Source of the DNA: a virus
Length of the DNA stretch: 28,005 nucleotides
IMG/VR virus record: IMGVR_UViG_3300020395_000078
Coordinates: 1-28,005 of that record
Strand: one strand, 5' to 3'
The notes beneath the pieces are model-generated. The model ran no database searches, was not told the DNA's origin, and saw nothing but the letters and a program-made list of their open reading frames with translations. Positions 12,489-20,268 of the stretch are shown here, piece after piece; positions within the stretch are counted from its first letter, which is position 1; the number at the start of each line of letters is the position of its first letter. The translations under genes and the position numbers were made by a program.

Positions 12489-12698
12489 ATGACTTCATCT
12501 ACGAACAGTATGAAACGTTACACTACTACCGAGTATGGCAAGCAGAATATGTTTGCTCATGAACCTCAAGTAGAAGTGCTTGATGTTGATTACTGGACTA
12601 ACGCAGAGCAAACCAATGGCCGCCTAGCGATGATTGGATTCTTTGCACTGGTACACAACTACATCCTCTTTGGAGCAGTTATACCAGGTATATTCTAA
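12489..12698 (+). CDS. hli: High-light-inducible protein
   Basis: 69 aa with the chlorophyll-binding motif ExxNGRxAMIG at residues 40-50 (EQTNGRLAMIG) and one membrane helix ending VIPGIF. Hli proteins bind chlorophyll and carotenoid in the thylakoid and dissipate excess energy, protecting PSII during infection. The N-terminal 39 residues are polar. Strong sigma-70 promoter upstream; a small hairpin and a second hli gene follow. Confidence 0.93.
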   Translation: MTSSTNSMKRYTTTEYGKQNMFAHEPQVEVLDVDYWTNAEQTNGRLAMIGFFALVHNYILFGAVIPGIF

Positions 12699-16499: not shown

Positions 16500-17177
16500 G
16501 TGTCTGTTAGTCGTTTTATACAAAGAGTATCAAAAGACGGTGGTTTAGCGTCTAGTAATAGTTTTATTGTAAGGATATTAGATTCTAGTGTAGGATCTTT
16601 TGACCTTGATGAGACTATAGAATTTTACTGTAATGAAGCACAATTACCTAACATTAATACAGCAGAAAGTAGTATTAATGGAATGTATGTTGGATCAGGA
16701 CAGGTAAAATATCCGCATACTAGGGTCTATACGGAAATTCAACTTGGATTCCTTTGTGATGCTAATATGACTGTACTTAAGTTCTTAAATGAGTGGCAAG
16801 ATCTTATGTTTAATCAACAACGTGGATCTATTGATAAAGTACAAAATAGGGAAGTAAGATTATCATACATGGATGAGTATGTTTCTGATATTGCCATAAT
16901 TAAAGCAGAACCAGGTCCAAAGTCTGCTGTACAAAGACAACCAATAACATATATTTTAGAAAGAGCATATCCATATGCTATTGACGCTGTTCCTTTACAG
17001 TATGGTACTAATCAAGTAGTTCAAGTAACTGCTCAGTTCTCATACATGCGTCATTACACGATGGATCACGACATTAGATTTGTTAAAGGCGATATTTCAA
17101 ACATGGGTGAGACTGAAGATGCAAGAGACATGGCTTTCGGTGGTGGATTCTCTCTTGGATTTGATGGACGCTGGTAG
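16500..17177 (+). CDS. 54: Baseplate tail-tube initiator gp54
   Basis: 225 aa. KYPHTRVYTEIQLGFLCDAN, MTVLKFLNEWQDLMF and the C-terminal YGTNQVVQVTAQFSYMRHY follow the tail-tube-like fold of gp19/gp54. gp54 sits on gp48 and starts tube growth. GTG start at 16500, downstream of a late box. The Gly-rich end (GGGFSLGFDGRW) is typical of cyanophage tube proteins. A tube protein (gp19) is an alternative, but position and size favour gp54. Confidence 0.78.
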   Translation: MSVSRFIQRVSKDGGLASSNSFIVRILDSSVGSFDLDETIEFYCNEAQLPNINTAESSINGMYVGSGQVKYPHTRVYTEIQLGFLCDANMTVLKFLNEWQDLMFNQQRGSIDKVQNREVRLSYMDEYVSDIAIIKAEPGPKSAVQRQPITYILERAYPYAIDAVPLQYGTNQVVQVTAQFSYMRHYTMDHDIRFVKGDISNMGETEDARDMAFGGGFSLGFDGRW

Positions 17178-17282: not shown

Positions 17283-17996
17283 ATGGCATTACCAAAAGTC
17301 GCACTCCCGACTTATGAACTGGAATTACCCTCAAATGGGAAAAATATTAAATATCGTCCATTTGTCGTAAAAGAGGAAAAACTTCTTTTAATGGCTATGG
17401 ACACAGAAGAAGAAGCTGCAATAACATCAGCAGTTAAAGAATTATTGAAAAATTGCGTTCAGAGCAGAATTAAGATTGATCAATTACCAACTTTTGATCT
17501 AGAATATTTGTTTTTGAATATTCGTGCTGTATCTGTTGGTGAAGAAGTAGATATGACTATCACCTGTAAAGATGATAATAAAACAGAGGTGAAATATACA
17601 TTTAGTTTATTTGACGTTAAAATAGATAAACCAGAAGGCCATGATCCTAAGATTAAGCTTTCTGATGACTTGGGTATTATTTTTAGATATCCTACATTCC
17701 CAGAATTTGTTAAATCTTCAATTATAGGGAAACAACTTGATCCTGAAGGATATATTGATGTTATTGCTGGATGTGTAGATCAGATATATGATGGAGAAGA
17801 AGTATATGATTCATCTACTACTAGTAAGAAAGAATTTAAGGAATTTATTGAAGGATTGACTACCAATCAATTTAAGGATATTACAAAATTCTTTGATACT
17901 ATACCTAAGTTAGAGCATAGGTTTAATATTAAGAATCCTGAAACTGGTGTAGAATCTGAATACGTAATCAATGGGTTACAGAATTTTTTCGGATAG
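17283..17996 (+). CDS. 26: Baseplate hub assembly protein gp26
   Basis: 237 aa of the T4 gp26 family (PF12322): LPTYELELPSNGKNIKYRPF, VKEEKLLLMAMDTEEE, LPTFDLEYLFLNIRAVSVGE and IIFRYPTFPEFVKSSII. In T4 the protein acts in hub formation. It starts after a perfect late box. Its last sense codons contain a slippery heptamer (17984-17990), so a share of ribosomes may extend it by about 60 residues in the -1 frame. This fits a tail-assembly-chaperone role directly before the tape-measure-like gene. Confidence 0.85.
   Translation: MALPKVALPTYELELPSNGKNIKYRPFVVKEEKLLLMAMDTEEEAAITSAVKELLKNCVQSRIKIDQLPTFDLEYLFLNIRAVSVGEEVDMTITCKDDNKTEVKYTFSLFDVKIDKPEGHDPKIKLSDDLGIIFRYPTFPEFVKSSIIGKQLDPEGYIDVIAGCVDQIYDGEEVYDSSTTSKKEFKEFIEGLTTNQFKDITKFFDTIPKLEHRFNIKNPETGVESEYVINGLQNFFG
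17984..17990 (+). promoter_or_regulatory. Putative programmed -1 ribosomal frameshift site
   Basis: T TTT TTC in the gp26 reading frame (P-site TTT 17985-17987, A-site TTC 17988-17990), two codons before the gp26 stop. The -1 frame has a stop at 17957 upstream and is then open without interruption to 18172. A CCCTC/GAGGG stem (about 17997-18001 with 18017-18021) lies just downstream as a possible stimulator. Confidence 0.7.
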
Positions 17997-18046
17997 CCCT
18001 CTTTCACACATCGTTGGAGGGTTATTATAAGACCAATTTCGCTTTG

Positions 18047-18172
18047 ATGCAATACCATAAATATAGCTTAAGTGAGATTGAAAATATGATGCCTTGGGAA
18101 AGGCAAGTTTATACCACTTTATTGATGCAACATCTTGAGAAAGTAAAACAAGAACAGGCTAAGAACAAATAA
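18047..18172 (+). CDS. Small helical protein; -1 frame extension of gp26
   Basis: Read from ATG 18047 it has 41 aa (MQYHKYSLSEIENMMPWERQ, then a helix ending KVKQEQAKNK). The coding look extends upstream of that ATG (GYYKTNFALMQYHKYS) with no stop back to the slippery site at 17984, so the natural product is probably a gp26 fusion of about 296 residues, like lambda GT. A Trp-Glu-Arg turn with a flanking amphipathic helix is a typical tape-measure-binding domain shape. It ends in a TAATG overlap with the tape-measure-like gene. It may also be translated alone. Confidence 0.7.
   Translation: MQYHKYSLSEIENMMPWERQVYTTLLMQHLEKVKQEQAKNK
18056..18063 (+). promoter_or_regulatory. Late-like box CATAAATA inside the small ORF
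   Basis: CATAAATA, 116 bases before the tape-measure-like gene. It encodes His-Lys-Tyr in the small ORF, so it may be a coding coincidence. Confidence 0.35.
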
Positions 18173-20268
18173 TGGCACATGGATTCCAAGGTATTGGTAA
18201 ATTACCAGAAAGCAAGGGTTATAAAGACTTGCATAATTGGGCCTGGGACAAATTAAAAAAAGCAGCTAAAACTGTTGGAGAAAGAAAAAAGAAAACGGCA
18301 CTTGGTCTAACTCAGGATAAGTCCATATTTCCAGTTGATGTATCAGTTATAGATGTAACTTCTGAAGAAGTTGAAGAAGCGGTACAAATTGCTGGACAGA
18401 CTTCAATGTTTGGACTTCCATCTAAGAAAGGTGGAGCAATAACTAATTTCTCTGGATCTGGATTAGCAAGTTTACAACCTAAAAGAGATCCTCATATAAA
18501 AGCAGATGAGACTATAGTACATTATGCTGGTGCATCTCAAGATGGGATATATAGCCCTACGTCTATGGGGCCTATTGGTCAGAATGATCCATCTGACACT
18601 TTACAAAGAATTGCTGATGGTGTAGATAGTTTAGTTAGAGAAGTCAAAGAGCACAAATACTCTATGGTTCACATGTCTCTCAGAAAAGAGAAACATGATG
18701 ATGTGATGATGGCTAGATCACGAGCATTCTTAGAACAGAAAATGTTTAAGGGTGGTTCTGGTTCTCCTTCTGGTGGAGGTGGTGGTGATTTTGTTAATAT
18801 GGCCATGGGCCTCGCTATGGGTGGTGGAAAAGGTGGTGGATCAGGTGATACGACCATGGCTTTGATGAGTGCTCTTGGAGGTACTGCATTAGGAAAACAA
18901 GCAGGTAAGTCTCTATCTGGTCTTGGGAAGAGTGGAAAGTCTGGTTCTATAATGAAACATGGTCTTGGTAGAGCTGCCAAACGTGGAGTTGCCAAAGCAG
19001 GTGGAAAAGCAGCACTTAAAGGTGCATCAAAAGTAACAGCAAAAGCAGTTCCTGGTCTTGGTTTAGGATTGGGTTTAATATTTGGATTGCAAAAATTTGC
19101 TAAAGGTGATTGGTTGGGAGGTATTGCTGAGATAGGTTCTGGAGCATTATCACTGACTGGTGCAGGAATTCCTCTTGCAGTAGCCCTTGATACTGCAATA
19201 TTAGCTAGAGATATGTCAAATAATGCTGCTAGTATGAATACTGGTGGTAAAGTTAATAAGCAACCTACGGGAGGAATAGATGGACAAGGTGGATTTGGAG
19301 CAATACTCCATCCAGATGAAGTAGTTTCTAATGAACCACAATTAAAGAAAATACCTGAGTATTTCCTTGATCATATGATTCAGAAGGAACAGGAGTATTC
19401 TAAAGTTATTGGATTAGGATTATATTGGAACCAAAGGAAATATCCAGGTTTCTGGGGTGGTGGCGGTGATGGTGCTGGTAATCAAGAGAATAAACCACCT
19501 TCACAATTTCAACAAGCAACTTCACAATTACTCCGTGGATTGATAGGAAGTAAAGTTGGTGACGGATATTGGGGACCGAGTTTTTTAAGACTCTTTAATG
19601 AAAATACTGAAGTAGGAAGACAATTAAAAGCAGAAGATGAAGTTGTACATGGTGGAGGAATAGGAGCAACAACTAGAGCAATTATAGGATCTGAGATAGG
19701 TGATGGATATTGGGGTCCAAGATGGTTGGGATGGAAAAGAGAAAATCAACCAACAGTTGATCCAGAACAAGTACTTAGATATTTACAGAGTCAAGGAGTT
19801 TCAAGAGAAGACGCAATTAATTGGACAAATAAAATCAATGATGCTTCTGGTTTTGTTGGTAATATGGATGGTGGATTATTTGGTTGGGAAGGTTCAGATT
19901 TTGCTGCAATGAAATCTGCTGTTGGTGATGATTGGCAGAATAACTGGCAGGGTCAATTAGATTATCTTATTAAAGAACAAGTAATTCTTCCAGAAAGCGG
20001 AAATAATACTGGAACAAATAATAATACTGGATCGGGTAATGGTGGTGTAACAACCACTGGAAATGAAACAGCAAATAATCTTAATCAGTTATCAGCTGAT
20101 CAAGCTCTTGTAATGGCAGGAAATAATCCTATAGTTGTTAATAATGTAATGACAGGTGAAGGTAGTGGACAACCTGGAACCACACCATCAGGATACTTAA
20201 ATGGTATTAGTATGGCAGATACTGGTACTGAAGTATTTGCCAATTTAAGAATAAGGAGTATTAGATAA
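18172..20268 (+). CDS. Tape-measure-like / gp29-type tail protein
   Basis: 698 aa. Charged helical N-terminus (HNWAWDKLKKAAKTVGERKK), a long helix near residues 145-185, then Gly/Ala/Lys-rich segments and a hydrophobic core (KAVPGLGLGLGLIFGLQKFA) as in phage tape measures. Two copies of IGSxxGDGYWGPxxL (residues about 461-475 and 506-520) form an internal duplication, followed by an Asn/Thr/Gly-rich linker. It lies between the gp26/frameshift pair and gp27, where T4 hub and tape-measure genes (27-29) sit. At the rule of thumb of 1.5 angstrom per residue it would span roughly 105 nm. No lytic domain seen. The exact T4 equivalent is uncertain. Confidence 0.6.
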   Translation: MAHGFQGIGKLPESKGYKDLHNWAWDKLKKAAKTVGERKKKTALGLTQDKSIFPVDVSVIDVTSEEVEEAVQIAGQTSMFGLPSKKGGAITNFSGSGLASLQPKRDPHIKADETIVHYAGASQDGIYSPTSMGPIGQNDPSDTLQRIADGVDSLVREVKEHKYSMVHMSLRKEKHDDVMMARSRAFLEQKMFKGGSGSPSGGGGGDFVNMAMGLAMGGGKGGGSGDTTMALMSALGGTALGKQAGKSLSGLGKSGKSGSIMKHGLGRAAKRGVAKAGGKAALKGASKVTAKAVPGLGLGLGLIFGLQKFAKGDWLGGIAEIGSGALSLTGAGIPLAVALDTAILARDMSNNAASMNTGGKVNKQPTGGIDGQGGFGAILHPDEVVSNEPQLKKIPEYFLDHMIQKEQEYSKVIGLGLYWNQRKYPGFWGGGGDGAGNQENKPPSQFQQATSQLLRGLIGSKVGDGYWGPSFLRLFNENTEVGRQLKAEDEVVHGGGIGATTRAIIGSEIGDGYWGPRWLGWKRENQPTVDPEQVLRYLQSQGVSREDAINWTNKINDASGFVGNMDGGLFGWEGSDFAAMKSAVGDDWQNNWQGQLDYLIKEQVILPESGNNTGTNNNTGSGNGGVTTTGNETANNLNQLSADQALVMAGNNPIVVNNVMTGEGSGQPGTTPSGYLNGISMADTGTEVFANLRIRSIR

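Follow-up and report, generated by a model that had tools for sequence, protein, structure and literature searches.

A programmed -1 ribosomal frameshift in gp26 very probably lets the phage described here make both a short and a long tail assembly chaperone from a single gene (probability about 0.93, estimated from sequence). The window, i.e. the whole stretch of DNA that was analyzed, comprises 28,005 bases, and IMG/VR record IMGVR_UViG_3300020395_000078 consists of exactly these bases. It is a fragment of a T4-like cyanophage; the best matches of its tail genes are found in Synechococcus and Prochlorococcus phages. According to the gene anatomy read from the sequence, one gene codes for a short form and a C-terminally extended long form, an arrangement of the lambda gpG/gpGT type.

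In the proposed mechanism, most ribosomes would terminate at the TAG codon of gp26, which yields the short form (TAC-N, 237 aa). At U UUU UUC, a smaller share, delayed by a hairpin at 17992-18026, would move back by one base while tRNA-Phe occupies both sites, bypass the TAG and continue to 18172. The resulting 296-aa protein (TAC-NC) would end in a gp51-like C-terminal domain. If the system works like lambda gpG/gpGT, the tape-measure protein would be coated by many copies of the short form and few of the long one, whose C-terminal domain would bring in tail tube subunits. The site, its conservation, the selection on the -1 frame, the hairpin and the homology with T4 gp26 and gp51 are seen in the sequence; that ribosomes slip, how often, what the hairpin contributes and what the products do is inferred.

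Gene neighborhood and anatomy of the site

The tail tube protein gene (16500..17177, + strand; PF23849 Phage_TTP_2, E 2.1e-77) is followed on the same strand by gp26, a small ORF in the -1 frame and a 698-aa gene (18172..20268) in the position of a tape measure. The gp26 homolog (17283..17996, 237 aa) is the predicted short tail assembly chaperone, similar to lambda gpG (PF12322, E 4.5e-72; phrog_150, E 2.3e-80). Its 3′ end reads AAT TTT TTC GGA TAG, with the zero-frame stop at 17994..17996. The heptamer U UUU UUC (17984..17990) has the form X XXY YYZ in the zero frame and lies inside the overlap of the two frames. The earlier note had recognized this heptamer as in frame, placing it two codons before the gp26 stop; the distance is slightly off, as only GGA lies between.

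The -1 frame is closed upstream by a TGA at 17957-17959, is open from 17960 and stops at 18170-18172 (open frame 17960..18172, + strand), at the same coordinates as noted earlier. Its used part, 17990-18172, comprises 60 codons and the stop, and is the putative gp51-like C-terminal domain (TAC-C, lambda T-like). The predicted frameshift product (17283..18172) consists of 236 codons up to 17990 and 60 codons in the -1 frame, base 17990 being read twice; one relative, L260, carries a zero-frame fusion of both parts. The first ATG of the -1 frame (18047..18049, + strand) is probably not a real start. Conserved coding sequence lies 5′ of it, and by eye the 16 bases upstream contain no Shine-Dalgarno-like sequence.

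The window also carries a cut ORF at 1-582 and an ORF at 12489-12698, which we take from their translations to be psbD-like and of the high-light-inducible type, respectively, i.e. host-derived photosynthesis genes.

Conservation of the slip site

Relatives of the region were taken from 357 loci. T4 (L081), KP15 (L089) and PKO111 (L101) were left out for their two-gene arrangement, as was a copy of the window (L102). The window was added and 12 truncated loci were set aside, which gave 342 usable sequences. Several loci repeat named phages, e.g. L123 has the length and identity of S-PM2 and L263 those of phiN3; a set reduced at 80% protein identity removes these repeats.

An in-frame T TTT TTN is present near the gp26 stop in 323 of the 342 sequences, 0 to 9 codons before it, with C (304), T (17), A (1) or G (1) at N. 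All 323 heptamer-bearing relatives have a -1 frame without stops from the heptamer up to a point 143-215 nt beyond the gp26 stop. A -1 stop between heptamer and extension, named in the earlier note as a finding that would speak against the shift, is thus absent, and the conservation of the heptamer itself bears the note out. At the level of gp26 representatives (80% protein identity), the 3′ region holds an in-frame T TTT TTN in 104 of 109. The window and its 80 nearest IMG/VR loci carry T TTT TTC with a single codon between it and the stop in 80 of 81 cases; the exception, L076, ends before the site. A -1 stop abuts the heptamer directly in 38 of the 323 relatives and is at most one codon off in 47, leaving almost no room for an earlier shift.

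The T preceding TTT TTN cannot be used as an argument within heptamer-bearing rows, where it is circular, and Phe-Phe pairs served as a control instead. In all 102 representatives with a terminal Phe-Phe (last 12 codons), the pair is written TTT TTY (96 TTT TTC, 6 TTT TTT) and the codon before it ends in T. The 114 Phe-Phe pairs elsewhere in the same genes show mixed usage: 58 TTC TTT, 31 TTT TTT, 19 TTC TTC and 6 TTT TTC, so that TTT is the first codon in 37, and a T precedes only 21 of them. Silent sites at the slip site are therefore constrained. Elsewhere in frame, the motif occurs 16 times in 25,157 codon positions, and three representatives have their own site in that stretch. The heptamer at the 3′ end of gp26 is not a product of chance.

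Among named phages, T TTT TTC is carried by S-PM2, P-HM1, P-SSM7, S-WAM2 and S-H34. It is also found in the Vibrio phages Va3 and nt-1, EniLVp02, Aeromonas phage PX29 and Stenotrophomonas phage Moby; Asswx_1 carries it as well. Melnitz-2, Cr30 and phiN3 have T TTT TTT, RHph_I1_9 has T TTT TTG, and RHph_I1_18 has T TTT TTA nine codons before the stop.

An upstream Shine-Dalgarno-like stimulator was considered and set aside. Such sequences precede the site in 67 of 104 representatives vs. 60 of 624 control segments, an excess confounded by conserved Glu-Gly codons. By eye, none precedes the site in the window.

The downstream hairpin

The window folds into an 11-bp stem, pairing 17992-18002 with 18016-18026 (+ strand), of -15.0 kcal/mol and z -3.30; an equally stable fold arises in 2 of 200 shuffles. 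When the segment is extended by 7 nt upstream and 15 nt downstream, z is -2.08 (6 of 200 shuffles). The CCCTC/GAGGG stem just downstream of the heptamer, pointed out earlier, is the core of this helix (17997-18001 / 18017-18021).

Folding downstream of the site exceeds that of control segments across the group. The mean z is -2.27 in 104 representatives (52% below -2) and -0.28 in 520 control segments from the same loci (8% below -2). The difference has a p of 4e-20, nominal as relatedness is ignored. A hairpin lies 3′ of the site in the window, as in roughly half of the lineages. Poor folders at the site include P-SSM7 (L084, z 0.3), EniLVp02 (L090, z 0.8) and RHph_I1_9 (L088, z 1.4). Arms were also swapped between all 93 representatives with one codon between heptamer and stop. 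In free register, own arms pair better than swapped ones (p 7e-18, nominal for the same reason and counting 20 swap rounds), and strong stems amount to 48% vs. 10%.

A single common register was ruled out, as the register drifts between lineages. Covariation was examined in 25 of the 26 sequences of one stem register (L273 left out), a group picked by its stem that leans to pairing and is illustrative only. In it, 93.1% of cells pair and the score lies above all 500 shuffles; doubly changed pairs (2 of 11) are unexceptional, being reached by 68 of 500 shuffles. The hairpin at 17992-18026 probably stimulates the slipping.

Coding of the -1 extension and alternative explanations

Two families match the -1 frame: phrog_634, named 'baseplate hub assembly catalyst', over residues 5-69 (E 1.2e-27), and the gp26 family phrog_150, of which the C-terminus aligns (E 1.4e-7). 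A tblastn search with the -1 frame gave matches in 659 phage records. All 60 matches listed among the alignments begin at query residues 1-13, 5′ of ATG 18047, which is residue 30. By sequence comparison, the extension is thus a real protein domain. A gene 51 product unrelated to gp26 was ruled out by the matches to phrog_634 and phrog_150 and by the comparison with T4 gp51.

The main alternative is that the downstream ORF is a separate gene, annotated as gp51, with its own start, reached by re-initiation after the gp26 stop or at ATG 18047. Deposited records do annotate a distinct gp51 or 'baseplate hub assembly catalyst', an in-frame ATG lies between heptamer and conserved core in 96 of 104 representatives, and the gp26 stop overlaps a start in 12 of 109. 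However, the -1 codons preceding ATG 18047 are conserved. Between the gp26 stop and this ATG, pN/pS (1,500 randomly drawn sequence pairs per set) is 0.07 in the -1 frame of 78 near relatives, vs. 1.92 in the zero and 3.4 in the +1 frame. In 89 representatives, up to the column of ATG 18047, the values are 0.36, 1.08 and 1.29, respectively. These ratios indicate strong purifying selection at the protein level 5′ of the ATG, in the -1 frame only, in agreement with the earlier impression that the -1 reading looks coding before its first ATG. In 99 of 104 representatives, 23 codons separate the heptamer from the conserved core, and in three columns of the stretch before the ATG the commonest residues are N (93% of rows), F (97%) and L (90%). 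An independent start at ATG 18047 as the whole explanation is ruled out by this conservation. Five of the 104 representatives have only GTG or TTG before the core and three have none of ATG, GTG and TTG. Annotated starts also vary by record, from 3 nt past the gp26 end in S-PM2 to 93 nt in P-SSM7, and both T4 gp51 and L260 hold the two parts in a single reading frame. A separate gene as the full account is therefore very unlikely, although a separate start may add a product in some lineages.

Still less probable is transcriptional slippage on the T run, producing mRNAs in the other frame. The site does contain a run of six T, which is short for such slippage, and the hairpin of about half of the lineages is a feature used by ribosomal slipping. 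The constant phase of the run is weak evidence against it, because the Phe-Phe pair fixes the phase too. Ribosomal frameshifting remains the preferred reading.

Relation to T4 gp26 and gp51

T4 gp26 and gp51 both belong to PF12322 (E 8.8e-64 and 3.9e-52, respectively) and match each other in blastp (E 3e-6), which indicates that they are paralogs. In two-sequence searches, T4 gp26 matches gp26 of the window (E 6.7e-15), and gp51, which extends past the shared domain, matches the -1 extension with its C-terminus (E 2.4e-4). T4 gp51 also matches phrog_634 (E 1.2e-23). From this paralogy and the match of the gp51 C-terminus, T4 appears to encode as two separate genes, located on opposite strands, what the window phage seems to make by slipping in one gene. 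In Klebsiella phage KP15 (L089:1931-3225), the genes annotated as gp51 and baseplate hub (gp26-like) follow one another on a single strand and overlap by 4 bases. The long form comes first, a layout different from the opposite strands of T4.

In the part of a T4 review that treats these proteins, gp26 is listed as a chaperone, yet genetic studies cited there put gp26 in the hub (PMC3004832). This placement counts against the chaperone reading, since a pure chaperone would not be in the hub. The same part describes gp51 as needed but absent from the particle (PMC3004832).

Fold and tape-measure neighbor

The L260 fusion was modeled with 51 gp26 rows (mean pLDDT 86.7), residues 240-258 around the junction being below 50. 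An earlier model from another alignment (mean pLDDT 72.9) was rejected, as the C-terminal half of gp26 had been aligned to the extension. Among 766 aligned solved chains, the best match is the HK97 tail assembly chaperone 2ob9 (Z 7.4), aligned over 84 of 107 residues with model residues 1-86; the Foldseek E value of 2.9 is not significant. It is followed by 3fgx (Z 7.2) and 3klu (YqbN, Z 6.6), then by a match of 4.4, all Z values being below 8. YqbN is presumably to be grouped with the tail assembly chaperones. The model is suggestive of a resemblance between the N-terminal fold of gp26 and the HK97 chaperone. By sequence, a search for solved relatives gave a weak match for gp26 (E 0.61) and none at E 1 for T4 gp51.

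The 698-aa protein has no tape-measure family match of its own, and the families it matches best bear the names 'unknown function' and 'endolysin'. Of the counterparts tested in nine relatives, six have tape-measure matches: Va3 (7e-10), RHph_I1_18 (2.7e-13), Cr30 (3.5e-9), phiN3 (3.5e-5), P-HM1 (4.8e-13) and, weakly, L260 (1.3e-4). None was found for those in PX29, EniLVp02 and RHph_I1_9. Position and these counterparts, rather than its own sequence, suggest that the 698-aa gene encodes the tape measure. The gene in this position is very diverse among relatives, with few blastp links, and T4 gp29 has no blastp match at E 0.01 to the other downstream genes.

Lineages without the canonical site

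T TTT TTN is missing in 19 of the 342 loci, 18 of the Ackermannviridae/K393 type and L260. The earlier note had counted a loss of the heptamer with normal gene conservation against the frameshift. In these loci, however, the loss is not neutral: the 18 loci have another short T run and a -1 frame that is still open, and L260 has the parts fused.

The gp26 genes of the Ackermannviridae loci L097, L100 and L439-L442 and of Vibrio phage K393 (L099) lack T TTT TTC; they end in A/G ATT TTC ATY TAA, or have C GTT TTT (VAP7) or A CTT TTC (K393). In all of them, the -1 frame continues without a stop beyond the end of gp26. For L097, L100 and L099, this frame has matches to phrog_9633 ('unknown function') and, at a weak level, to the gp51 family phrog_634. 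By eye, the first 13 or so codons past the slip site contain no ATG, GTG or TTG in the kutterviruses L097 and L442.

L260 is a 236-kb IMG/VR virus contig, in which gp26 and the gp51-like domain are fused in the zero frame (2001-2894; the same site as L359). The fusion arises by a 2-nt deletion in the heptamer relative to the near relative L360. The match of the fusion protein to phrog_150 is nearly full-length (profile 5-278 of 282). Ribosomes slipping by +1 at TTT T would meet a TAG. A search for a second gp26 copy in the record found only the one match. In a search for relatives of L260, the other 79 of 80 loci, some of them also in earlier sets, carry T TTT TTC one codon before the stop. 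The fusion is a single metagenomic case and could be an assembly error.

A broader evolutionary scenario is speculative and rather unlikely as a whole. Frameshifting would be ancestral to the gp26 superfamily, with three exits: gene duplication in T4; the N NTT TTY site of the Ackermannviridae, at which only one tRNA re-pairs well; and the 2-nt deletion in L260. In L260 the long form would be the default; any short form still produced would arise when a +1 slip at TTT T takes the ribosome to the TAG close by.

Known systems and implications

In 2022, Vladimirov, Gautam and Davidson reportedly described short and long chaperones made by -1 frameshift as conserved in several T4-like groups, the T4 group using the separate genes 26 and 51. 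The genes and the scheme of that work are reportedly the same as in the window; the slip site of lambda gpG/gpGT differs from that of the window. A literature search returned no title or abstract on frameshifting in cyanophage gp26, which says little, as that study was outside its reach. In one passage, a 2016 review calls the G-T frameshift widely conserved 'except T4' (PMC5009743). Some T4-like phages do without frameshifting and have a short gene plus a fused long one, as stated in a passage of the PRFect paper (PMC10885494, citing Vladimirov et al. 2022). TAC-N genes of T4-like phages are known to carry poly-T signals, according to a section of the Adele paper (PMC12846349, citing Vladimirov et al. 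2022). The chaperone genes of Vandenendeviridae and Andersonviridae, other phage families treated there, likewise have a conserved -1 frame and a poly-T slip site at the end of TAC-N, with the motif GTTTTT vs. T TTT TTC in the window (PMC12846349).

This kind of frameshift is thus already known for relatives of T4, and the gene in the window is an unannotated further case. The proposal that gp26 plus the -1 domain forms a frameshift-made tail assembly chaperone stands on site, selection and homology; the surprise expressed in the earlier note at finding it in a T4-like phage is unwarranted, since the scheme was in print. Parts of this account, namely the survey of hairpins, the site of the Ackermannviridae and the fusion in L260, may already have been published.

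None of the 23 annotated records of frameshift-type relatives that were examined has a joined CDS for gp26 and the extension. Gene calls and names such as 'baseplate hub assembly catalyst' therefore give a false picture of the products that are likely made, and they omit the N-terminal part of the extension. As the case of T4 suggests, a recoding signal may be replaced by gene duplication.
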